46,055 nucleotides of DNA from a virus. The DNA is taken from positions 1 to 46,055 of the IMG/VR virus record IMGVR_UViG_3300032240_000148; one strand, written 5' to 3'. The notes under the pieces are model-generated. The model made no database searches, was not told the DNA's origin, and saw only the letters and a list, made by a program, of their open reading frames with translations. Of this stretch, positions 1 to 46,055 are shown in pieces (position 1 is the stretch's first letter; every line of letters starts with the position of its first letter). The translations under genes were made by a program, and so were the position numbers.

Positions 1-123
1 TATAACGATCACCCTTACCGAGGACTTGCCAACAACAGTGTGGCCTACACCGAAAGACCCGATTCTGAAACTTTCATGGAAGAATGGCTCGCTTTGGTTA
101 AGTCCAAATCAGGTGAACGAGGA
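1..123. repeat. Terminal direct repeat (left copy), circular-assembly overlap
   Basis: The first 123 bases are identical to the last 123 (45933-46055). Both copies lie inside the ribonucleotide reductase gene, and joining them keeps that gene in frame. A circular or circularly permuted genome assembled with one overlap explains this best. A T7-like fixed terminal repeat would normally lie between genes, so that reading is less likely. Unique length would be 45,932 bases. Confidence 0.93.
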
Positions 124-1110
124 ATTTTTAATCGTGTTGCTTCTCAGGCTCAAGCAGGAAAATGGGGGAGACGAGATCCGCTTCTCAGCTATGGCACCAA
201 TCCATGCTCAGAAATTATCCTCCGTGATAAACAGTTCTGTAATCTTACGGAAGTGGTTGTACGGGGGAACGATACCGAATCTACCTTGGCTAATAAGGTG
301 TCCCTCGCTACAATACTCGGTACAATTCAGTCCACTCTCACCAGCTTCCAATTTCTAAGTGAAGAATGGAAAAAGAATACTGAAGAAGAAAGACTTCTTG
401 GTGTGTCATTAACTGGTATCATGGATTGTAAACTAACAAACAAACCTGATCCCGCAATGTTAGAAAGGTTAAGAGATGTCGCGAGACAAACAAATGAACA
501 ACTTTCTGAGGTCCTTGGTGTTCCTCCTAGTGCTTCTATCACTTGTGTTAAACCTTCAGGTACAGTCAGTCAGTTGGTGGATAGTGCTAGCGGCATTCAT
601 GCTAGACATAACACTTACTACATTAGAAGGGTTCGCATTGATAAGAAGGACCCTGTATACTCGTTCCTTAAGGAAAAAGGGTTCCCAGTGGAAGACGAAG
701 TGTTCCGCCCTGATTCGACAGCTGTATTCTCGTTTCCTGTAAAAGCCCCTAAGGGTGCTGTTACTAGAAATGATATGACTGCACTAGAACAGTTAAACTT
801 ATGGTTAGTATACCAAAGACATTGGTGTGAACATAAACCTTCAGTTACTATTACAGTAACTGATAATGAGTGGCCTGAAGTTGGTGCATGGGTATGGAAA
901 CACTTTGATGAAGTGTCAGGAATTTCATTCCTTCCTCATTCAAACCATACTTATCAACAAGCACCTTATGAAGATATAACAGAAGAGCAGTACAAAGAGT
1001 TAGCATCTAAAATGCCAGATCATGTCAATTGGAGTGAGTTGGTAGAGAAAGATGATAATACAGAAGGAAGCCAAACCCTAGCTTGTGTTGGCGGAACGTG
1101 TGAAATATAA
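1..1110 (+). CDS. nrdJ: Class II (adenosylcobalamin-dependent) ribonucleotide reductase, C-terminal part
   Basis: This is the 3' part of the reductase that begins at 45150; the two halves join across the circular overlap into 630 residues. It reduces ribonucleotides to deoxyribonucleotides for phage DNA synthesis using B12. Codons 67-72 of this part read NPCSEI: this Cys (residue 330 of the whole protein) matches the thiyl-radical cysteine of Lactobacillus RTPR, and Glu332 is the partner acid. A second Cys at 341, eleven residues on (FCNL), matches the disulfide partner. The C-terminus ends in a CX4C pair (623 and 628), the swinging re-reducing cysteines of monomeric class II enzymes. It is the penultimate functional block of the rightward operon, and its stop codon overlaps the next ATG. 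Confidence 0.95.
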   Translation, partial: YNDHPYRGLANNSVAYTERPDSETFMEEWLALVKSKSGERGIFNRVASQAQAGKWGRRDPLLSYGTNPCSEIILRDKQFCNLTEVVVRGNDTESTLANKVSLATILGTIQSTLTSFQFLSEEWKKNTEEERLLGVSLTGIMDCKLTNKPDPAMLERLRDVARQTNEQLSEVLGVPPSASITCVKPSGTVSQLVDSASGIHARHNTYYIRRVRIDKKDPVYSFLKEKGFPVEDEVFRPDSTAVFSFPVKAPKGAVTRNDMTALEQLNLWLVYQRHWCEHKPSVTITVTDNEWPEVGAWVWKHFDEVSGISFLPHSNHTYQQAPYEDITEEQYKELASKMPDHVNWSELVEKDDNTEGSQTLACVGGTCEI

Positions 1111-1874: not shown

Positions 1875-2137
1875 TATACGTTATAGTAAGGTAGTTTATA
1901 AACAGTGCCATTAATAGTTATATTAACATAACCCGCTGGGTTAGCAGGTAAAGCTTGTCCATTACCTGTATTAGATGAGTTACTAACAGTGTTACTTACA
2001 GGACTAGTTGTAGTCTGTATATTTGTAACAGAAGTGCTAACAGTATTAACAGTATTAAATATGTTAAAGAACCAGTCACGCCATTCGTGTACATCTCCAA
2101 CTGGTAGGTTGGGTATTGGTGGTAAGATATTAGCCAT
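1874..2137 (-). CDS. Hypothetical protein with Ser/Thr/Asn-rich linker
   Basis: 87 residues. The N-terminus is Pro-rich with an aromatic WRDWFFNIFN stretch, the middle is a low-complexity Thr/Ser/Asn region, and the end reads GYVNITINGTVYKLPYYNV. Such a beta-type tail (GY-NI-ING-T-K-PYY) recurs in small podovirus virion-region proteins, from memory. It shares one-base start/stop overlaps with both neighbours, so it is translated as part of the operon. Function is unknown; a minor virion protein is possible. Confidence 0.7.
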   Translation of the reverse strand: MANILPPIPNLPVGDVHEWRDWFFNIFNTVNTVSTSVTNIQTTTSPVSNTVSNSSNTGNGQALPANPAGYVNITINGTVYKLPYYNV

Positions 2138-3450
2138 TATTCGTATTTAAACTCCTTACAATAACCTAGCTTTTGAAGCTTAGGTAGTTCATCTTCAAGT
2201 CTCTCGCCTATGTCGTCACGTACAATCATTGCACTAGGTACTTCAATCTTTTTAACTATTTCCATAGACTTCTTACATGCCTCTTTAACAGTAGATCCTG
2301 TACCAGAAGTTACTAAGATGTAGTCGCCCGCAGATACCATCATCTCTTCTTCTTTAAATTTGCCATCTTCAAATACAGGACCTTTGCCCATCATAACTTC
2401 ACAGAAGTGAACGTCATCACCACACTTTTCTAAACCATAGATAGGGAACCCTGCTGGGTCTCTACCTGTAGACTTAGTAAATGGAAAGTCAGGTATAGCT
2501 ATAACATGACCAGCAGCTATGTCTTTAGACGCTTTAAGAGTGTCTTTACCTTCTAATAGATCACACATCCAACTTAATGAGTCACCTTTATGTAGTGCTG
2601 ATTGGATGTTAAATAGTGGCCAGCCTGGACGTGTAGTCCATTCTAAGGGTCTTGGAGAACCTTTCTCATCAATAATGAATGCAAGGTCTACATAACCAAT
2701 GTAGTTTTGGAATCGTAAGTATTCTTCTAGTTTACCTAGTGTCTCATCAAATAGTGTAGAGTTTTCTGTATACTTTAATACAGTACCCATCTCACCAGTG
2801 TTAACACCAAAGTTACTAGGCATTAGTTTTTTAAACTCAAAGTTCTCACAACGTAGTTTACTGAAACCATTCTTGCCCATCCAGGCACCTACTGCAACTT
2901 CTATACCAGGTACAAACTCTTGCATGATAAATGGCATCTTAGTTTTACCTTTAGATTTCCATCTCTCTAGCATATAGAGCATATCAGCAGGAGATTTAGA
3001 TACATAGCTCAAAGCTTTGTCTGCATCACCAGAAGGTTTAGATACATAACGTTTAGGATTAGCCTTTAAATAAGCTATAGCATCATTGTAGTTAGTAAAC
3101 TCTTGACCTTCAATAATGTCTAGACCTGCTTTCTTAAGTACATCTTGACCCTCACCTCTACGAAGTTCTAGGTAAGATGTATCAAGACTTGCACCAATAA
3201 TAGGGAATCCTTTTTGATGATACTTCTCTAAGAATTGCATTTGATATGCATTATCAGAAAGTATAATAACATCAGCCCATTTCATAAAGGCTTCCCAATT
3301 CAATACACGAGTAACAATACCTTTACCAATAATAGATTGTTCACCTGTTAAAGACTTCTTTTGCCATTGTTTAACTTCATGACCTTCTAGCATTAAACGA
3401 CAAGCAAAGTCCGTAAAGGCTCCTGCCGGATCTAATAGTAGGACTTTCAT
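2137..3450 (-). CDS. ATP-grasp enzyme related to PurD (phosphoribosylamine-glycine ligase)
   Basis: 437 residues, close to the length of bacterial PurD. It has a nucleotide-binding-like N-terminus (MKVLLLDPAGAFTDFA) and the ATP-grasp lysine at K138 (YVSKPSG). It also has PGIEVAVGAW at 181-190 and FGVNTGEMG at 214-222, very like the PurD signature GPNTGGMG. The metal-binding strand reads LEWTTRPGWP (269-278) where PurD has E-N-R-F-G, so Glu270 and Arg274 are kept but the usual Asn is Thr272. An ATP-dependent carboxylate-amine ligase is very likely. Whether it makes glycinamide ribonucleotide or another amide is open. It sits among late virion genes, with no other purine-pathway genes nearby. 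Confidence 0.85.
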   Translation of the reverse strand: MKVLLLDPAGAFTDFACRLMLEGHEVKQWQKKSLTGEQSIIGKGIVTRVLNWEAFMKWADVIILSDNAYQMQFLEKYHQKGFPIIGASLDTSYLELRRGEGQDVLKKAGLDIIEGQEFTNYNDAIAYLKANPKRYVSKPSGDADKALSYVSKSPADMLYMLERWKSKGKTKMPFIMQEFVPGIEVAVGAWMGKNGFSKLRCENFEFKKLMPSNFGVNTGEMGTVLKYTENSTLFDETLGKLEEYLRFQNYIGYVDLAFIIDEKGSPRPLEWTTRPGWPLFNIQSALHKGDSLSWMCDLLEGKDTLKASKDIAAGHVIAIPDFPFTKSTGRDPAGFPIYGLEKCGDDVHFCEVMMGKGPVFEDGKFKEEEMMVSAGDYILVTSGTGSTVKEACKKSMEIVKKIEVPSAMIVRDDIGERLEDELPKLQKLGYCKEFKYE

Positions 3451-25933: not shown

Positions 25934-27445
25934 TTAGTATCCTGTTACGCGAGAGCGTCCATCGTTTTGTAATGATTTAAGAGTTTGTTGGTATTCATAT
26001 TCATCTTCTTCTTCAGGAGTGTCAGCTGATTGTACTTGGTCAACAACCAAGCCTAACCAACTTAATGCATCCACTTGGTCATCATGTCTTGCTTTAGGGA
26101 AGCGTACCATCTCTTCTTCTAAATCAGGATACCAAGGTGCATTCTTATCAAACTTAACACCACCTGCTTTAAACCTTGCTTGAAAACTTCTTGCTCTTGC
26201 TTGTTTATCTTTTGTAGGAGTCATTGGGTAAAGATTCATATACAATTGACGATTAACTTGTTCTCGTCTTAATATGGCACCAATAGCCTTTTCAATTGCA
26301 CCTTTCTCAGTTACAAAGTACTGAGGGTCATACTTCTTCTGTACTGCAAACATTTCATCGACAATCTCTAGAGCATCCCAACGACCTCTACGAATGTCAA
26401 CAATGTTCATGATACCATCAGAGTCAATTCCACCGATAGCAATAACAGTGTAGTCGCTACGATCTCTTGTAGAGATAGCAAAGTCAACTGCAGCGTAATA
26501 AGTAAGTTTCTTTTCTTTGTGTCTGATTGCATCTAATGTATGTTTCGGTATTTCAATAAAATCGTTACGTTTAAAATAAGAAGTAGACTCATCGATAGGA
26601 TAGTTTAAAAACTCCTGAGCATACACTTCTGGAATACCTTGCTTAGTGTAGTCTTCTTTCTTATTTCTAAAATAGTCTGCATCGTATCTATCTGTCCATA
26701 AGATAGATAAATAATCTTCAGAGTGTGCTCTATATCTTACACTTCTCCACTCTACACGTTTACGTGTTGAATAAGTCTTTAATGGCTCTTTGTGAATATA
26801 ATCGCCATCATAATCGGGAGGCATAAGACGATTGAGTAAGGAATCGAGATGTAACACAGTTCCCACAATACGTACAATACCATGCTGAGACCTACAAGGA
26901 AGAAGTGCCGCGTAGAACCACCTTCTGAACTTCTCACGTCTGTCTTTGCTTTGTACTTGTTCATCGCCTTCCAAATCATCACATATAATTAAATCAGGTC
27001 GACGTTGATCCCATTTCAATCCTCGAACTCTTTGCTCTGCACCACGAACTAAAACTCTAAACTGTTCACCATCTTGAAACTCTACAATGATGTCTGTCTG
27101 TGAATCTTTAACTAGCTCTTTAATCTGAAACAAGTTAATAAGATCTTCGTTGTTTACTAGTTCATCTTTTAAGTCACTCAAAAAGTTAATTGCTTGACTT
27201 TCTGTATCTGAAACTATTAGTGCAAACTTTCTATCTCTAAATAAAAGGGCAGCGAGCAAGTAAGCATGAGTTATTGCAGTGGATTTCCCGTGGGCTCGGG
27301 GAGCTGCAATTGCTACTAATGGGTCGTCGCTGCAACAGAGATCCCACCACTCAAGATGGCATTGCGGAGTGGGGGTAGTTCCATCGTATCGTTTTGCTAA
27401 ACATGCCCCGGTGAAACCGTGGATCATGTCTGGTGTTAATTTCAT
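25934..27445 (-). CDS. terL: Terminase large subunit
   Basis: 503 residues. The ATPase has Walker A APRAHGKST (48-56) and Walker B LIICDD followed by Glu159. The C-terminal RNase H-type nuclease has Asp321 (AAVDFAIST), Glu380 and the HDDQVDAL motif (454-461, with Asp456 and Asp459). The ATPase motor drives DNA into the head and the nuclease cuts concatemers. The start overlaps the HNH-like gene by four bases. Confidence 0.95.
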   Translation of the reverse strand: MKLTPDMIHGFTGACLAKRYDGTTPTPQCHLEWWDLCCSDDPLVAIAAPRAHGKSTAITHAYLLAALLFRDRKFALIVSDTESQAINFLSDLKDELVNNEDLINLFQIKELVKDSQTDIIVEFQDGEQFRVLVRGAEQRVRGLKWDQRRPDLIICDDLEGDEQVQSKDRREKFRRWFYAALLPCRSQHGIVRIVGTVLHLDSLLNRLMPPDYDGDYIHKEPLKTYSTRKRVEWRSVRYRAHSEDYLSILWTDRYDADYFRNKKEDYTKQGIPEVYAQEFLNYPIDESTSYFKRNDFIEIPKHTLDAIRHKEKKLTYYAAVDFAISTRDRSDYTVIAIGGIDSDGIMNIVDIRRGRWDALEIVDEMFAVQKKYDPQYFVTEKGAIEKAIGAILRREQVNRQLYMNLYPMTPTKDKQARARSFQARFKAGGVKFDKNAPWYPDLEEEMVRFPKARHDDQVDALSWLGLVVDQVQSADTPEEEDEYEYQQTLKSLQNDGRSRVTGY

Positions 27446-28557: not shown

Positions 28558-28646
28558 TTAATCTTTTTAGGTTTCTTAGGTTTTGCAACAATCTTAGCCT
28601 TCTTAACGTAAGACTGTTTCTTTTCCTTTTTAGGTTTAGTACCCAT
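28554..28646 (-). CDS. 30-residue Lys-rich peptide
   Basis: A frame of 31 codons between the small terminase and the next tiny gene. It starts MGTKPKKEKKQSYVKKAK and about half its residues are Lys or Arg. It overlaps the upstream gene by eleven bases and the downstream ATG by four, so translation is probably coupled. No clear ribosome binding site is visible. A DNA-charge-neutralising role is a guess. Confidence 0.5.
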   Translation of the reverse strand: MGTKPKKEKKQSYVKKAKIVAKPKKPKKIK

Positions 28647-29289
28647 TAAACTCTGGGGGTTCGTTGCTGTTGATATTGCCATCGTTAATGTCCTCTTGTT
28701 GAATTGTAGAAGCTACAGCTTCCACTTCTTTAGCACTAGCAAACTTCTCAAATTGAGAAGCTAGTAACTTAAGTCTGTCGTCTACTGCAACTTTGTTTGT
28801 GATACTCGTTGGTTCACCCCTGACTAGTTGTCTACGGTTCACCAAGTTGTTAAATAGGTTTGAGAGTACTTTAGTGTCAATTGGTTTACGAACCAAGACA
28901 CTCTTACGTACATCCCAAAGATAGTCTCCGTTCTGGAGACGTTCTTCAATCTCTGTTAAACTCTTATCGAGTACACTACTGATTCTAGAACCGAGCTTCT
29001 CGTTCTGCTCGACGTACACTTTCTTTTGAATTTCAACCCACCAGGGTTCTTCTTTCCATTCCCGTATGTACTTGACAGGAACGTTTGTAAGTTTAGATAC
29101 TTCGTCTAAGTCACCATAGACACAGTAAAGAGTGCAAGCATCAATCTTAGTTTGCTGAGGAAACCATTCCGGAGCATGATGTTTAGCTTTGAGGGGTCTT
29201 CCACGACGTGGAGTAGTTGATATTTCTTGACCATCTAAAAAATATCCACTTGACACTTCTTCATTCTTCTGATCTAAATCTTCACTCAT
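28636..29289 (-). CDS. terS: Terminase small subunit (putative)
   Basis: 217 residues. After a polar N-terminus comes RRGRPLKAKHHAPEWFP and a helix-turn-helix (KIDACTLYCVYGDLDEVSKL then TNVPVKYIREWKEEPWW), as in DNA-recognising small terminases. A long helical oligomerisation region follows (KLGSRISSVLDKSLTEIEER). The first genes of the operon are this and, eleven bases overlapped, the Lys-rich peptide. No ribosome binding site precedes the ATG; the promoter at 29296-29324 places the start of transcription on it. Confidence 0.8.
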   Translation of the reverse strand: MSEDLDQKNEEVSSGYFLDGQEISTTPRRGRPLKAKHHAPEWFPQQTKIDACTLYCVYGDLDEVSKLTNVPVKYIREWKEEPWWVEIQKKVYVEQNEKLGSRISSVLDKSLTEIEERLQNGDYLWDVRKSVLVRKPIDTKVLSNLFNNLVNRRQLVRGEPTSITNKVAVDDRLKLLASQFEKFASAKEVEAVASTIQQEDINDGNINSNEPPEFNGY

Positions 29290-29295
29290 GATAAT

Positions 29296-29324
29296 ATTAT
29301 AACATAAGAATTTAAAAATGTCAA
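29296..29324 (-). promoter_or_regulatory. Consensus sigma-70 promoter for the packaging/virion operon
   Basis: On the minus strand TTGACA (29324-29319), 17 bases, then TATAAT (29301-29296): both hexamers are perfect and the spacing is ideal. Only six bases lie between the -10 box and the ATG of the small terminase, so the expected start site (about 7 bases on) is the A of that ATG. Confidence 0.88.
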
Positions 29325-29344: not shown

Positions 29345-29416
29345 TTACTTGTTCATAACATACATAGTTACTTCAAAACCGAAACGTAGTTCGGTTGCAG
29401 CTGGAGTAGTCCACAT
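29345..29416 (-). CDS. pqqA: PqqA, peptide precursor of the cofactor PQQ
   Basis: A 23-residue peptide, the same length as Klebsiella PqqA, beginning MWTTPAATELRF and followed by GFEVTMYVMNK. Glu15 and Tyr19 in the EVTMY core are the two residues that host PqqE (radical SAM) cross-links to build PQQ, with Trp2, Pro5, Arg11 and Gly13 also matching the family pattern. A strong ribosome binding site (AAAGGA, seven bases before ATG) supports translation. No pqqB, C, D or E is in this window, so the host must supply them. It is the first leftward gene, upstream of the terminase promoter. A minor worry is that 23 codons can arise by chance, but this length, motif and site together make chance unlikely. 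Confidence 0.88.
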   Translation of the reverse strand: MWTTPAATELRFGFEVTMYVMNK

Positions 29417-29469
29417 AGCAGTATCCTTTCGTATATTAAAATATATAAGCTCTTTAAGCTTACCATAAT

Positions 29470-29498
29470 ATTATACTCCCCTTTTAAAAATATAACAT
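29470..29498 (-). promoter_or_regulatory. Possible promoter for pqqA
   Basis: On the minus strand a perfect TATAAT (29475-29470) lies 17 bases after ATGTTA (29498-29493), a poor -35. The start site would be about 29463, giving a leader of about 47 bases that includes a small hairpin (AAGCT/AGCTT) before the pqqA ribosome binding site. Bacterial pqqA genes are often strongly transcribed, but this promoter is weak by consensus. Confidence 0.45.
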
Positions 29499-32357: not shown

Positions 32358-33905
32358 ATGAAGCCATATAGTTTTATTGAGTTTAATAAACGGTTTAATA
32401 TGTTTAACTGGTCTCATCCAGATATAAGACAAACATATTGGACTAAAGAACAAAATGAATATGATTACGAACAACAAGCTACAGTTCGTAAGACATTCAC
32501 ATTGTCTACTCTTTGGTATAAAGATGAAAGAGTTTTACAGTTTTATACCAATGATGAAGGTAATGGTAGCAGACGATTAAGTATTTATAATATGTATCGT
32601 GAACTAGCATTTGGTCAAGGACTTGTTACTAGTCCAAGTTATAGAATCAATGCTAATACTTTAATTGATACTTTGTATTACAAAGTAAATGCACCAAGTT
32701 ATTACAATAAAAATGGTACACTAAAGAAAGGCTTTTGGGGTGCATTAGCTAGACGCTTACGCTCACAAGCGTTGCGTGTTAGTTGGGTAACTCAACACAT
32801 GTTACGAGAAGCTGCTAGTATAGCTTCTAATAGTACTTCAACAGTTAGTCAAGTATTTGATACTCATAATATTCCTTCTTGGTCTTATTATGTTGACTCA
32901 TTAACTAATGAATGGTTTGTTGAAGGTTCTAATAGACGAGTAAGACTTGGTAGTACTGAGTGGGTATATGTTCATCGTGCTACTGATCCTGCAACACATG
33001 GATATACATTCAATGAGCGTAATGACATCTGGCTTAGACCTGATCAGTTCTATCACAGTGGTAATGTATACAATCGTTCTGAAGTAAACATTGTAGAATG
33101 TAGACAATGTGGTACTGAAGTTGTAGATGAATTATGTGTTGATGGTGTATGTCATCAGTGTCTTGATGCATCATTTAAAATACATAACTATTCTACTCGT
33201 GTTGAGAGTATGCTTAAGTTTAAAGCTACACGCGTTAGACCTAACACAGTGTATCTAGGTTGTGAGCTTGAATACGAAACAAAGAATCGTAATCGTGCAC
33301 AGATTGGTGTTGGTAAGTTGTTACATGGTCATGCTCTTATGAAGTCTGACGGTTCTATTCGTAATGGCTTCGAGATAGTTACATGTCCTGCTACATTGGA
33401 CATTCATCTTGAAATGTTTAAGAAGTTTTATGATAACATTCCACCTGACTTAAAGGTAGAAAAGAATGTTGGTATGCATGTACATATCAGTCGCAAACCG
33501 TTGTCGCAGTTGACAATCGGTAAGTTAACTGAGTTTCTTAATCGTGATGATAACAAACAATTCATACATCATATTGCTGGTCGTATAGACAACAACTATG
33601 CTCGTATGGAAAGTGATCGTACGGTTACATTCCCATGGCGTCATCGCAATGGTGGTGGTAGATACAATGCATTAAATCTTAATAACGAGAATACAATCGA
33701 GGTTCGATTGTTTGCTACACCAATGAACTACAAAGAGTTTGCTATGCGATTACAGTTTGTTCAAGCGTTAGTTGACTATTGTAGTCCAGCTCAAAGTAGT
33801 TTAGCATTAAAGAAACAAACTCATTACGAAGCATTCATGGGTTGGTTGTCAAACAAGAAAAGAATGTTTCCTGAACTTAGTTATCATTTGAAGGAGTATG
33901 TATAA
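32358..33905 (+). CDS. Amidoligase (glutamine synthetase-like COOH-NH2 ligase)
   Basis: 515 residues. The first 245 have no known family. A five-Cys zinc ribbon (C248, C251, C260, C265, C268) follows. The C-terminal part is an amidoligase domain: LGCELEYE (Glu303, Glu305), a KSDGSI (Asp331) with GFEIVT (Glu339), GMHVHIS (His374, His376) and TIEVRLFATP (Glu448, Arg450). These acidic and His residues hold metal and ATP in the GS-like ligases. It probably joins a carboxylate to an amine. It is the first gene of a three-gene cassette with an amidotransferase and an ATP-grasp; the start of the next gene touches its stop. Ribosome binding site AAAGGA. Confidence 0.85.
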   Translation: MKPYSFIEFNKRFNMFNWSHPDIRQTYWTKEQNEYDYEQQATVRKTFTLSTLWYKDERVLQFYTNDEGNGSRRLSIYNMYRELAFGQGLVTSPSYRINANTLIDTLYYKVNAPSYYNKNGTLKKGFWGALARRLRSQALRVSWVTQHMLREAASIASNSTSTVSQVFDTHNIPSWSYYVDSLTNEWFVEGSNRRVRLGSTEWVYVHRATDPATHGYTFNERNDIWLRPDQFYHSGNVYNRSEVNIVECRQCGTEVVDELCVDGVCHQCLDASFKIHNYSTRVESMLKFKATRVRPNTVYLGCELEYETKNRNRAQIGVGKLLHGHALMKSDGSIRNGFEIVTCPATLDIHLEMFKKFYDNIPPDLKVEKNVGMHVHISRKPLSQLTIGKLTEFLNRDDNKQFIHHIAGRIDNNYARMESDRTVTFPWRHRNGGGRYNALNLNNENTIEVRLFATPMNYKEFAMRLQFVQALVDYCSPAQSSLALKKQTHYEAFMGWLSNKKRMFPELSYHLKEYV

Positions 33906-34816
33906 TGTGTATTGCAATCTATAAACCAGAAGGTAAAGTTATTCCGTATGCAACATTGAAAGAGTGTTATGATTCTAATCCAGATGGTGCAGGCTTTATG
34001 TATGCAGAAGATAAAGTGTTACATATACAAAAGGGTTTCTTTAGTTTGAAAAGCTTTTACAAAGCGTATAAAGAACACGAACATAAACAAACAGTATTAC
34101 ATTTTAGGATTAAAACTCATGGTAAAATTGATGCAACAAATTGTCATCCCTTTGCAGTTAATAATGCAATTGGCTTTGTCCATAACGGTGTTATTAGTGG
34201 GTTCGGTGATGCTGATCATAGCGACACGATTGGGTTTAACAATGGAGTATTGCAACCATTGGTTAACAAATGGGGTAACTTATCTTTATTCCAAGATCCA
34301 ATTAAAGACTTGATTGAGTCTCGTATTGGTTATAGTAAACTAATCTTCCTTGATCGTCATGGAAATCATCACATCTTCGGTGAAAAGAAAGGCCAATGGG
34401 ATGATGGCATTTGGTATTCAAATACAAGCTATCAACCTTATGTAGCACCTGTAACTACTACATGGTCTAGTGAAGCATGGCGTAAAGATTATAAATATCC
34501 AATAGCTAGTAAGACTGTTGTAGCACCTATCAAACGTAAGTATGGTGTTATGGTTGGTGACTTAGTTGAGTTGCTTGAAGAAGTTAAAGATGATTCTAGT
34601 AACAAAGTATACGAAACTGGTGAGCTATTTGAAATCGTTGCAGTCAATAAAGATTTCACTGCTGACTTAATGTATGAAACTGAGAAAGGTGATGTTGAGT
34701 TTATATACAATGTTCCTTATCACTCTCTTAACTTTGTAGATGACTTTGAAGAAGATCCTGTAGGAGCACCTGCATATCATAGCTTCTCATCACCTTCATT
34801 ATTAAAAGGATACTAA
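33905..34816 (+). CDS. Class II glutamine amidotransferase (Ntn hydrolase fold)
   Basis: 303 residues. Cys2 (MCIAIY) is the nucleophile exposed after removal of Met1. LHFRIKTHGKIDATNCHPFA (R68, H72, then H81-P82) and FVHNGVI (Asn94, Gly95) form the glutamine site, and SDT (106-108) holds an Asp like the GlmS one. It frees ammonia from glutamine, or as a relative cuts an amide. Residues about 175-303 are an extra beta-type domain (GVMVGDLVELLEEV). A strong ribosome binding site (AAGGAG) precedes the ATG, which overlaps the stop of the amidoligase by one base. It likely gives nitrogen to that enzyme. Confidence 0.87.
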   Translation: MCIAIYKPEGKVIPYATLKECYDSNPDGAGFMYAEDKVLHIQKGFFSLKSFYKAYKEHEHKQTVLHFRIKTHGKIDATNCHPFAVNNAIGFVHNGVISGFGDADHSDTIGFNNGVLQPLVNKWGNLSLFQDPIKDLIESRIGYSKLIFLDRHGNHHIFGEKKGQWDDGIWYSNTSYQPYVAPVTTTWSSEAWRKDYKYPIASKTVVAPIKRKYGVMVGDLVELLEEVKDDSSNKVYETGELFEIVAVNKDFTADLMYETEKGDVEFIYNVPYHSLNFVDDFEEDPVGAPAYHSFSSPSLLKGY

Positions 34817-34817
34817 T

Positions 34818-35570
34818 ATGTCTCTTAAACTATTTCCTTATAAACAACAAAGTCTGTCCGCCAAGAAATTGGCGAGACGACTTAGTATACTAAGAGTAAG
34901 ACATACTTACGATGCTAAGCGTCGTGATGTAATTGTTAACTGGGGTGCTTCGCAACCACCTCAGTTTAAGTCTATGCCTCATGATCTAAACAAACATGAA
35001 GCTATAGCAATAGCATGTGATAAACTTAAAACCTTTAAAACTCTTGCACTGCAAGGGTTTGAACAGTTACCTAAGTTTAGTACTAAAATAGAAGACGCTA
35101 AAGATTGGATAGACAAAGGTGAAACAATCTATTGTCGAACTAAATTAAACAGTCACAGCGGTCGTGGTATAGTTATATGCAATGATGTAAATGATTTACC
35201 TATTGCACCATTGTATACTGTCAAAGCTAATCATAAATTAGAGTATCGTGTTCATGTCTTTAAAGGAGATATATTGTATGTACAACAAAAGAAAAAGAAA
35301 CTTGGGGTTTCCTCATCCACTAGCGGTATTCGCAATCATGGTAACGGCTGGGTTTACTGCACGCCAACTGATACACCTAGTGAGCTACTACTATCATCAT
35401 GCGTTCGTGCAGTCAAATTACTTGGTCTCGATTTTGGTGCAGTTGACATTGGTCATCGTGTTCGTGATAATCGTTTCTTCGTGTTTGAAATCAATACTGC
35501 ACCAGGATTAGTTGGTACAACGCTTGACAAATATGCGAAAGCAATTTACAATTACTATAGGAGTCTATAA
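34818..35570 (+). CDS. RimK-like ATP-grasp ligase
   Basis: 250 residues of one ATP-grasp domain. TIYCRTKLNSHSGRGIVI (103-120) is the glycine-rich ATP loop, and LYTVKANHKLEYRVHVFKGD (132-151) holds a Lys, Glu142 and Arg144. VDIGHR (Asp210) and FEINTAPGL (Glu224, Asn226) bind Mg. It is closest to the RimK and peptide-ligase class, which adds an amino acid to a carboxylate via an acyl phosphate. It is one base after the amidotransferase stop. The trio makes an amide-forming pathway likely. The substrate is unknown. Confidence 0.85.
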   Translation: MSLKLFPYKQQSLSAKKLARRLSILRVRHTYDAKRRDVIVNWGASQPPQFKSMPHDLNKHEAIAIACDKLKTFKTLALQGFEQLPKFSTKIEDAKDWIDKGETIYCRTKLNSHSGRGIVICNDVNDLPIAPLYTVKANHKLEYRVHVFKGDILYVQQKKKKLGVSSSTSGIRNHGNGWVYCTPTDTPSELLLSSCVRAVKLLGLDFGAVDIGHRVRDNRFFVFEINTAPGLVGTTLDKYAKAIYNYYRSL

Positions 35571-38668: not shown

Positions 38669-38820
38669 ATGAGTTTGAAGAAGTACTTAAAGCTAGACCT
38701 GATTTGACCCGTGAAGATTTGTATGATATAATAGATATAATGGACTTCAATGAAACATTACTTGAGGCAGCCAATAAATTCTATCCACTTAATAAAGGAA
38801 CCGGAGATTGCGCAGCTTAA
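38665..38820 (+). CDS. Small acidic protein with TTG start (51 aa)
   Basis: Starts at TTG (38665), eight bases after GAGGAG, and reads NEFEEVLKARPDLTREDLYD onward, ending with TGDCAA. Charged helices with no motif. The TTG shares bases with the upstream TGA, as in coupled genes. The end overlaps the TTG start of the polymerase gene by 13 bases. Confidence 0.6.
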   Translation: MNEFEEVLKARPDLTREDLYDIIDIMDFNETLLEAANKFYPLNKGTGDCAA

Positions 38821-39980
38821 TCTTAGATGTAGAAACAACTATAAGCAACAAAGGCAATCCATTTGATGAAAGGAATAAACTCTGTTATGTTGGTCTCTAT
38901 AGCGATAGTCAGCATTACCTTTTTGATATTGATTATAGCGGAAGTCCTAACCGACAACGACTTGACGATATACAAAGATACATTGACAGCCACGATACTA
39001 TTGTTGGCTTTAACATCAAGTTTGACTTGCATTGGATAAGACGATATGGAATTAATATTGTGGGCAAACGTGTTTGGGACTGTCAGTTGGTACATTATAT
39101 ACTTACACAACAACAAAATCCCTATCCAAGTCTTAATGGTGTCGCTGAGTATTATGGTTTGGGTAACAAGCTTGATGTTGTTGCTAGTGAATATTGGGGC
39201 AACAATATCGATACCACGGAAATCCCTAGAGATGTTCTTGAGGAATATCTTATAGGTGATTTGCATTTAACGCAAAAGGTGTATGAGAAACAACTAGAAG
39301 AATTTGCGTCTCTCGCAAAGTCTACACAGCGGTTAATTAGTTTACATAACCAAGACCTACTGGTCTTACAGGAGATGGAATACAATGGCATACTCTTTGA
39401 TGAAGAGCAATGTAATAAACTTGGTAATGAACTTGAAGAACAAATTAAAAAGATTGATGAACTACTTTATGATTACCATAACCTTCCTGAGTTTAATCCT
39501 TCTAGCACTGAACATATCTCTTCTTTACTATATGGCGGTAGCTTTACTATCCGTAGAAGAGAAACTGTGGGAGTGTTCAAGACTGGTACTAGAGCGGGCC
39601 AACCTAAAGATAGATGGTTCGAACATAAGATTACTTATGAAAGAATGGTTACACCAATTAAAGGATCTGAACTAGAGAAAGAAGGATTCTATTCTGTAGA
39701 TGATCAAACGTTAAAGAGTTTGAAGTTTAGAACTAATAAAGCACGTGAGCTTGTGGAGCTCATCTTAGCAAGAGCAACACTAATGAAACGACTCACTGCT
39801 TATTACCAAGGACTACCAGACTTAAGAACTAAAATGAATTGGCCTGTAGGTAAACTACATGGTGTATTGAATCAATGTGTTGCTAAGACAGGAAGACTAT
39901 CGTCTACTAAACCTAACTTACAAAACTTTGATGGAGAAATTAAACAACTATTTGGGAGTAGGTATGCTATTACAAGCTGA
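38808..39980 (+). CDS. DNA polymerase I family, N-terminal part: 3'-5' exonuclease and start of polymerase
   Basis: 390 residues from a TTG (38808) with AAAGGA nine bases before it. The proofreading exonuclease has Asp7, Glu9 (LDVETT), Asp73 (NIKFDLH) and Tyr147-Asp151 (EYLIGDLH), a DEDDy set. Then thumb-like helices and the strand TGRLSSTKPNLQN (361-373), which precedes motif A in family A polymerases. The frame then ends at a TGA. The rest of the polymerase follows in another frame (39964-40683), overlapping by 17 bases. It looks like a split or frame-shifted polymerase. Confidence 0.88.
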   Translation: MRSLILDVETTISNKGNPFDERNKLCYVGLYSDSQHYLFDIDYSGSPNRQRLDDIQRYIDSHDTIVGFNIKFDLHWIRRYGINIVGKRVWDCQLVHYILTQQQNPYPSLNGVAEYYGLGNKLDVVASEYWGNNIDTTEIPRDVLEEYLIGDLHLTQKVYEKQLEEFASLAKSTQRLISLHNQDLLVLQEMEYNGILFDEEQCNKLGNELEEQIKKIDELLYDYHNLPEFNPSSTEHISSLLYGGSFTIRRRETVGVFKTGTRAGQPKDRWFEHKITYERMVTPIKGSELEKEGFYSVDDQTLKSLKFRTNKARELVELILARATLMKRLTAYYQGLPDLRTKMNWPVGKLHGVLNQCVAKTGRLSSTKPNLQNFDGEIKQLFGSRYAITS

Positions 39981-40683
39981 CGCAAAAGCTTTAGAGTGGG
40001 TCTGTGCTACATACCTTTCTCAAGATGAAACTGCTATAAAGGAGATATGGGATGGAACTGATCAGCATAGCGATAATCAACTTAGGTTTGGGCTTCCTTC
40101 TAGGCTCATTGCTAAGACATTTGTTTTCAGACTCATCTACGGAGGTAGTGCTTACAGTTATGCTCATGACGTTAATTTTACTGGTGTATCTACATCTGAA
40201 TCTTTCTGGCAAAATGTTATAGATGAGTTCTATAAAAAGTATAATGGGTTAGCAAAGTGGCATAAGTTAATTGTCGATCAAGCCATTCGGGATCGCCAAC
40301 TAACTATGCCTACGGGTAGAGTTTATAAGTATGAACCAGAAGTAAAGTATGGTAAAGTCAAATGGCCTCGCACGAAAATCTTAAACTATCCAGTACAAGG
40401 ATTAGGTGCAGACCTGATGGCAATAGCAAGAGTGTCTTTAGCCAATAGGCTTAAAGATGTAGCAGGAGTTAAACTTATTAATACTGTTCATGATTCGATA
40501 ATACTTGACTATGATGAGAAAGTATGCGATAATAATAGTATAGTAAGTTTAGTTGATAAGTGTTTTACGGATATTCCAACTAACTTTAAGAAGTTGTTTG
40601 GAGTAGATTTTAACCTTCCTATGCGGGTCGAATGTCAAGTTGGACCTAACTGGGGTAACATGGAGATAGTTAATGTTAATTAA
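39964..40683 (+). CDS. DNA polymerase I family, C-terminal part: palm and fingers
   Basis: 239 residues if started at the ATG 39964, which has GGGAG five bases before it. Motif A is LLQADAKALEW (Asp6), motif B KTFVFRLIYGG (Lys51, Phe55, Tyr59), motif C NTVHDS (His176, Asp177). These are the catalytic residues for DNA synthesis and belong to the protein started at 38808. Phe55 is at the place of E. coli Pol I Phe762. Motif A begins exactly at this ATG, so translation of the second half separately or a shift of frame would each give a useful enzyme. Confidence 0.87.
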   Translation: MLLQADAKALEWVCATYLSQDETAIKEIWDGTDQHSDNQLRFGLPSRLIAKTFVFRLIYGGSAYSYAHDVNFTGVSTSESFWQNVIDEFYKKYNGLAKWHKLIVDQAIRDRQLTMPTGRVYKYEPEVKYGKVKWPRTKILNYPVQGLGADLMAIARVSLANRLKDVAGVKLINTVHDSIILDYDEKVCDNNSIVSLVDKCFTDIPTNFKKLFGVDFNLPMRVECQVGPNWGNMEIVNVN

Positions 40684-45157: not shown

Positions 45158-46055
45158 TAAACTCAGTGATTATGGACGCTTTATCCATAAAAGTAGATAT
45201 GCTCGGTACTTAGAGTCTGAGCAACGTAGAGAGTCATGGGAAGAGACTGTAGCAAGGCTAATGGTCTATGTACAATCTAAAGTACCTGAATTAACTACAG
45301 ATCCTGTTTATAAGGATAAGTTAATTGAGTTACATAATGCTATTCTTAATTTAGAAGTTATGCCTAGTATGCGTCTTTTAATGACCGCAGGTGAAGCATG
45401 CGAAAGAGATAACATCGCTGCTTACAATTGCTCTTACCTTGCTATTAATAATAAACGAGCTTTCTCTGAAGCTCTTTACATACTAATGAACGGTACTGGT
45501 GTAGGATTCTCATGTGAAAGACAAGAGATTAACAAACTACCTACACTACCTGAACGATTTAAGGAGGTCGATGATGTCATTGTGGTTGGAGACTCTAAAC
45601 TCGGATGGGCCAAAGCGTTTAAGAAGTTATTGTCATCATTGTGGGAAGGAGACATCCCTAAGGTTGACTACAGTAAAGTCAGACCCGCTGGATCAAGACT
45701 TAAAACATTCGGAGGACGAGCCAGTGGTCCTGATCCATTGCGTAAGCTGTTCCAATTTACAATCGATACATGTAAAGGATCTGCTGGGAGAAAGTTAAAT
45801 AGTTTAGAAGTACACGACATCATGTGTATGATTGGTGAGATTGTTGTAGTAGGTGGTGTAAGACGATCTGCTCTAATCTCTTTAAGTAACTTAACAGATA
45901 AAAGGATGCGAGATGCAAAATCAGGAGCCTGGTATAACGATCACCCTTACCGAGGACTTGCCAACAACAGTGTGGCCTACACCGAAAGACCCGATTCTGA
46001 AACTTTCATGGAAGAATGGCTCGCTTTGGTTAAGTCCAAATCAGGTGAACGAGGA
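45150..46055 (+). CDS. nrdJ: Class II ribonucleotide reductase, N-terminal part (continues at window start)
   Basis: Starts at ATG 45150 inside the preceding gene and reads MTDKLSDYGRFIHKSRYARY onward through the window end. The remainder is at 1-1110 (see that entry). Cys94 in AAYNCSYLAI matches RTPR Cys119, the partner of the cysteine pair. ALYILMNGTGVGFSCERQEI and VVVGGVRRSALISL are class II reductase motifs. No clear ribosome binding site precedes it; translation is probably coupled. The whole enzyme is 630 residues, shorter than the Lactobacillus enzyme (739). Confidence 0.95.
   Translation, partial: MTDKLSDYGRFIHKSRYARYLESEQRRESWEETVARLMVYVQSKVPELTTDPVYKDKLIELHNAILNLEVMPSMRLLMTAGEACERDNIAAYNCSYLAINNKRAFSEALYILMNGTGVGFSCERQEINKLPTLPERFKEVDDVIVVGDSKLGWAKAFKKLLSSLWEGDIPKVDYSKVRPAGSRLKTFGGRASGPDPLRKLFQFTIDTCKGSAGRKLNSLEVHDIMCMIGEIVVVGGVRRSALISLSNLTDKRMRDAKSGAWYNDHPYRGLANNSVAYTERPDSETFMEEWLALVKSKSGERG
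45933..46055. repeat. Terminal direct repeat (right copy), circular-assembly overlap
   Basis: Identical to bases 1-123. It is in the reductase gene in the same frame. Removing one copy restores a continuous gene of 1893 bases. Confidence 0.93.

Follow-up and report, generated by a model that had tools for sequence, protein, structure and literature searches.

A pqqA reading frame upstream of the late operon

The window, meaning the whole virus record of 46,055 bases that was analysed, contains leftward genes that include those for the terminase large subunit, the portal and the major head protein, and rightward genes that include those for a DnaB-like helicase, a DNA polymerase and an exonuclease. 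Upstream of the leftward late operon lies a short frame, confirmed here to encode a clear PqqA and not to be a chance frame (Table 1). The initial annotation had described a frame of 24 codons including the stop, with an AAAGGA site seven bases 5′ of the ATG, without giving its strand. Frame and site were both recovered, on the minus strand; the plus-strand translation of the same bases contains an internal stop, and the minus strand is open for all 24 codons. The frame is located in phage DNA, being surrounded by terminase, portal, capsid, helicase and polymerase genes, and it also occurs in complete genomes of phage isolates. A consensus sigma-70 promoter separates pqqA from the late operon; it would serve the downstream late genes and not pqqA.

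Table 1. Coordinates of pqqA, its leader elements and the neighbouring late genes in the window.
Feature	Position	Strand	Remarks
Terminase large subunit	25934..27445	minus	anchor for finding the lineage independently of pqqA
217-aa ORF	28636..29289	minus	opens the late operon; likened to a small terminase on position alone, no family match
Consensus sigma-70 promoter, TTGACA-17-TATAAT	29296..29324	minus	between pqqA and the late operon
pqqA	29345..29416	minus	encodes the 23-residue PQQ precursor MWTTPAATELRFGFEVTMYVMNK, then a stop; Glu15 and Tyr19 are the residues for cross-linking
Shine-Dalgarno sequence, AAAGGA	29424..29429	minus	7 nt upstream of the pqqA ATG
Leader hairpin, GTAAGCTT-AAA-GAGCTTAT	29445..29463	minus	begins 6 nt after the -10 box
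Probable -10 box of pqqA's own promoter, TATAAT	29470..29475	minus	weak -35

By sequence the frame meets what is expected of a PqqA, namely a profile score above cut-off, a Glu and a Tyr four residues apart, and a length of ∼22–24 codons with its own translation signals. The Pfam PqqA profile (PF08042) matched the peptide with 41.4 bits against a cut-off of 21.1 (E 1.3e-10, all 19 positions covered), and the NCBI equivalog TIGR02107 scored 38.1 bits against a cut-off of 20. These profile searches bear out the earlier proposal that the product is PqqA, and Trp2, Pro5, Arg11, Gly13, Glu15 and Tyr19 are all placed as had been described. The pqqA frame gave the only PF08042 match in the whole record, and the same profile found no match in 14 control genomes. 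Consistently, a degenerate PqqA pattern matched the window once and none of 100 dinucleotide shuffles. Searches for the peptide identified no matching family in PHROGs and no match among solved structures, and Rfam contained no known RNA within the window.

Distribution of pqqA in phage isolates and viral contigs

A tblastn search of the peptide against 50,697 phage records returned 12 matches, nine of which had been isolated on Methylophilales (P19250A, MEP301, Venkman, MEP401, MEP402 and four Melnitz strains). The gene is therefore present in every Methylophilales phage isolate turned up by the searches; these nine belong to at least three unlike phage groups. The remaining three matches were one spring-water metagenomic phage and two contigs named Acinetobacter phage. 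One of the latter (H11; Acinetobacter phage MD-2021a, L245, CAKLQF020000010.1) was rejected as a phage pqqA, as it holds the whole, intact pqqABCDE operon beside polyphosphate kinase and is apparently chromosomal DNA; the other (H12) has the same name, and the chromosomal reading rests on H11 alone.

In the six records inspected, pqqA was not annotated on its own strand. Its absence from annotated isolate records agrees with the view, put forward in the initial annotation, that gene callers overlook a gene of this size. In Melnitz and the spring-water phage (L243, L244; MW202481), the call that lies under pqqA is an opposite-strand hypothetical protein, which is probably a false call.

Relatives of the peptide were sought through degenerate DNA patterns, and the lineage of the window through terminase anchors. 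The pattern scan of IMG/VR matched at least 120 viral contigs, and every match listed has a frame with its own start, an upstream ribosome-binding sequence and a nearby stop. Conservation of Trp2, Pro5, Arg11, Gly13, Glu15, Thr17 and Tyr19 in this set is not independent evidence because the pattern fixes these residues. With the terminase anchor, relatives were found without the peptide and the whole records were then searched for PqqA. In this way pqqA was detected in 10 of 10 records of the window's lineage of at least 33 kb (nine terminase relatives and the window); shorter records say little on presence because they are fragments. One relative of 50.8 kb (G037; L323, L324) carries two pqqA copies at different places and with different peptide sequences.

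Among P19250A-like records of at least 32 kb, pqqA was present in five of nine, and among MEP401-like records of at least 30 kb in two of six. No pqqA was detectable in the near-complete relatives G206, G208, G209, G212, G215, G223, MW202796 and MW202697, the last two being relatives of the spring-water phage. The gene is also absent from related or comparable phages of other hosts (Vibrio ICP2, Lentibacter ICBM2, roseophage CRP-4, Celeribacter P12053L, Alcaligenes QDWS535, Marinobacter AS1 and pelagiphage HTVC008M). Universality among related phages was dropped on the P19250A-like and MEP401-like counts; pqqA in these phages is frequent, not universal.

Selection on pqqA and its positions within one lineage

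Sixteen distinct pqqA sequences of the window's lineage gave a pS of 0.604 and a pN of 0.051 (pN/pS 0.084). Synonymous sites are near saturated and the protein is almost fixed, and the gene is under strong purifying selection at the protein level. Among the isolate copies, pN/pS was 0.185. Nearly identical and diverged relatives alike carry the same pqqA with synonymous changes. Glu15, Tyr19 and the Arg11-Gly13 motif are kept in all isolate and lineage copies inspected, and the AGGA(G) ribosome-binding sequence is kept across all syntenic relatives. Loss of the frame from related phages, with substitutions at the Glu and Tyr, would have refuted the initial annotation; the frame is retained and both residues are intact.

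Within this single lineage pqqA occupies three genomic positions. The first, upstream of the late operon, is that of the window and of terminase relatives such as L246, L265 and L272. The second is the end of the late genes, adjoining ribonucleotide reductase (six pqqA copies). In the remaining arrangement, seen in three copies, the gene lies on the opposite strand, inside the replication module.

A -10 box and a leader hairpin accompany pqqA

A TATAAT sequence 44–59 nt before the ATG was found in 16 of 16 lineage pqqA copies, at each of the three positions, against a shuffled mean of 1.9. A hairpin starts within ∼7 bases of this box in the lineage leaders and is retained among relatives although the stem sequences differ. 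Because the multiple alignment of the leaders is too gappy for a formal covariation count, an arm-swap test was chosen as a simple stand-in, which is not formal covariation. The own arms averaged -6.9 kcal/mol, whereas arms swapped between phages averaged -1.5 kcal/mol. Host pqqA leaders, in contrast to the strong box and hairpin of the phage lineage, show no clear TATAAT excess or hairpin. None of six isolates has TATAAT at that spacing, which restricts the cassette in this form to the lineage of the window and perhaps to a few further contigs. From the sequence elements alone, pqqA is inferred to be a self-contained minigene, and the leader hairpin is inferred to protect its transcript.

Upstream of pqqA in L265, L319 and L325, the -10 box lies between the arms of an inverted repeat, GTTTTCATTC...GAGTGAAAAC; this repeat occurs in several lineage members and is possibly an operator rather than just the leader hairpin.

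Host PqqA copies and the absence of other PQQ genes from phages

Methylophilales, including OM43 and Ca. Methylopumilus, are abundant aquatic methanol oxidisers. PQQ is a cofactor of methanol-oxidising enzymes, and each PQQ consumes one PqqA peptide. All 120 Methylophilaceae genomes drawn by search carry PqqA, with 1–12 matches each, even at genome sizes of 1.2–1.3 Mb. These counts agree with the 3–12 pqqA copies and single set of other PQQ genes reported by Beck et al. (2014), in whose comparison XoxF and the genes for PQQ biosynthesis belong to the core of the Methylophilaceae (PMC4109929). The OM43-type genome LSUCC0665 has a pqqBCDE operon without a neighbouring pqqA and three pqqA copies elsewhere, away from the operon as the phage gene stands alone; only one PQQ alcohol dehydrogenase was found above cut-off in it. 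PqqD- and PqqE-type genes are present in the hosts. The many pqqA copies against one pqqBCDE set, together with the expenditure of one peptide per PQQ, suggest that peptide supply is important to hosts. Work cited in PMC9851590, as summarised there, indicates that cell extract turns added PqqA peptide into PQQ. Overexpression of pqqAB in Acetobacter raised PQQ by only 29%, and of pqqABCDE eightfold (PMC7936290), so that PqqA need not be the main bottleneck.

The length and signature residues of Methylophilaceae PqqA (Methylotenera, Ca. Methylopumilus and OM43) are the same as those of the window peptide. The window peptide is identical at 22 of 23 residues to the commonest Methylophilaceae PqqA found here, MWTTPAATEMRFGFEVTMYVMNK, from which it differs by M10L, and four exact peptide sequences are common to phages and hosts. 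This identity and the replication genes resembling those of OM43 phage MEP401 support the methylotroph host suggested in the initial annotation, although the host of the window phage itself remains an inference. At the DNA level, 8 of 69 bases distinguish the window pqqA from its nearest sampled host counterpart, too many differences for it to have been copied recently or to act as an attachment site; the latter possibility was ruled out on this ground.

PqqE was found above cut-off in none of 37 viral records (the window not among them), the only positives being two host genomes. A search of 35 phage or viral records, the window among them, gave no PqqC. No methanol dehydrogenase is present in the window record. 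Because PqqE and PqqC are absent from the phage records tested, the phage appears to supply the substrate only and to rely on host enzymes. A full-length methanol dehydrogenase in an IMG/VR record filed as viral (G065; L327) was rejected as viral, as its neighbours are formate dehydrogenase and further genes of cellular appearance; the record looks largely cellular.

Proposed role of phage pqqA and alternatives

The reading we favour, and consider likely, is that the window encodes a functional phage pqqA, a stand-alone 24-codon auxiliary metabolic gene (AMG) whose peptide feeds host PQQ synthesis so that methanol dehydrogenases stay loaded. The gene has the attributes of an AMG in that it lies in phage DNA, has a close host relative and is selected at the protein level; its effect on host metabolism is inferred. 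The infecting phage would produce the PqqA peptide in large amounts, host PqqD and PqqE would cross-link Glu15 to Tyr19, and the remaining host enzymes (PqqB, PqqC and a protease) would complete PQQ. Because each PQQ uses up one peptide, continuous PqqA production would be required and a shortage would arise once host transcription falls. The added PQQ is predicted to load host XoxF/MxaF methanol dehydrogenases, and methanol oxidation, energy and carbon flow may be sustained while virions are built. In the absence of expression, proteomic and biochemical data, the expression of the gene, the cross-linking, the rise in PQQ and its support of methanol oxidation during infection, as well as the benefit to the phage, are inferred. 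An effect of extra PQQ is consistent with hosts holding many pqqA copies and one pqqBCDE set. Because the hosts already hold several copies, the benefit of an additional one hinges on dosage and timing.

PQQ serves other quinoproteins too, and the biochemistry that follows PqqA is not bound to one enzyme. The peptide could thus be a real PqqA whose PQQ is destined for another quinoprotein or for redox protection of the infected cell. However, the isolate hosts are Methylophilales methylotrophs, XoxF and PQQ biosynthesis are core in the family (PMC4109929), and LSUCC0665 has a single PQQ alcohol dehydrogenase; a destination other than methanol oxidation is accordingly judged unlikely.

A phage equipped with the substrate but with neither PqqE nor PqqC is also what would be expected of a PqqA mimic or decoy that occupies PqqD/PqqE and slows host PQQ synthesis or a quinoprotein-linked defence. 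Such a decoy should lose or alter its reactive residues, whereas the inspected isolate and lineage copies all keep Glu15, Tyr19 and Arg11-Gly13, and the exact peptides common to phages and hosts argue in the same direction. We give this possibility very little weight. Equally improbable is that pqqA is a passenger acquired from abundant host copies, with no selected role, or a mere homology patch for recombination. The multiple host copies, the several phage positions and the phages that lack the gene would fit a passenger, but neither the strong protein-level purifying selection at near-saturated synonymous sites, nor the divergence from the nearest sampled host copy, nor the retention of the gene's own -10 box and hairpin at every location in the window's lineage would. 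Finally, a chance frame or contaminating bacterial DNA, to which the 23 codons and the operon-bearing 'Acinetobacter phage' contig might point, is already refuted by a profile score far above cut-off, the lack of any match in shuffles and the occurrence of pqqA in complete isolate genomes, syntenic beside terminase genes.

The hosts of pqqA phages are, as known or inferred, Methylophilales methylotrophs. It is an even call whether the functional pqqA proposed for the window extends to a general rule, namely that a pqqA minigene independent of genomic position is common among aquatic Methylophilales phages (with its own -10 box and protective leader hairpin in the window's lineage) and overproduces the precursor peptide of a cofactor during infection. 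It would be a substrate-only AMG, feeding a ribosomal-peptide pathway where other phages would supply an enzyme. If this is true, peptide supply, not enzyme level, would limit the methanol oxidation of infected cells.

Relation to known methylotroph phages

There is a precedent for pqqA in a methylotroph phage: Coutinho et al. (2020) reported it in the T4-like Lake Baikal virus population VP_266, which is predicted to infect Methylophilaceae, and likewise read it as an AMG. VP_266 encodes a methanol dehydrogenase, and the population with which it was paired carries radical SAM proteins (PMC7678222). In contrast, the 46 kb window phage belongs to a different lineage and has pqqA alone, with no PqqC or methanol dehydrogenase, and its close relatives lack PqqE. 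Apart from PMC7678222, no account of a methylotroph phage with pqqA was found in the open-access literature, of which PMC13188868, which mentions pqqA and AMGs, was not covered. There is no mention of pqqA in the papers describing MEP301, MEP401/402, Venkman and Melnitz (that on P19250A was not covered). What is new is the wide distribution, the stand-alone cassette and the absence from annotation.

MEP401 has pqqA in common with the window, together with a helicase (63% identity), a polymerase (55–67%), ribonucleotide reductase (74%) and an amidoligase-type ORF (36%), but its terminase is only 26% identical. P19250A, MEP301 and Melnitz carry pqqA as the window does, but are other phage types. 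Because cultivated phage–host pairs already carry the gene (Venkman and Melnitz on H5P1, MEP301 on FZCC2181 and P19250A on IMCC19250), the hypothesis is testable now. If phages do supply the PQQ precursor, methanol turnover is under direct viral influence. At this size pqqA is among the smallest metabolic genes known and is overlooked by annotation pipelines; subject to a contamination check, it can flag contigs as phages of PQQ-making methylotrophs.

Other features of the window

The DNA polymerase is encoded on the plus strand in two overlapping frames (38808-39980 and 39877-40683), representing either a split polymerase or a frameshift site; the two-part arrangement also occurs in relatives L321 and L322, and in MEP401 as separate genes. 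Three ORFs are grouped at 32358-35570 (plus strand): one is amidoligase-like, one has a weak phage match of aminotransferase type, and the third encodes 250 aa. The first two have relatives in MEP401, for which an amidoligase and a glutamine amidotransferase have been reported (PMC10580990). Amid the late genes, positions 2137-3450 (minus strand) encode an ATP-grasp protein similar to phosphoribosylglycinamide synthetase (PurD). Stretches at the two ends of the window (40-1110 and 45479-45940) match one and the same ribonucleotide reductase gene of MEP401, and the record therefore looks like a genome that is circularly permuted, with the cut falling within this gene.
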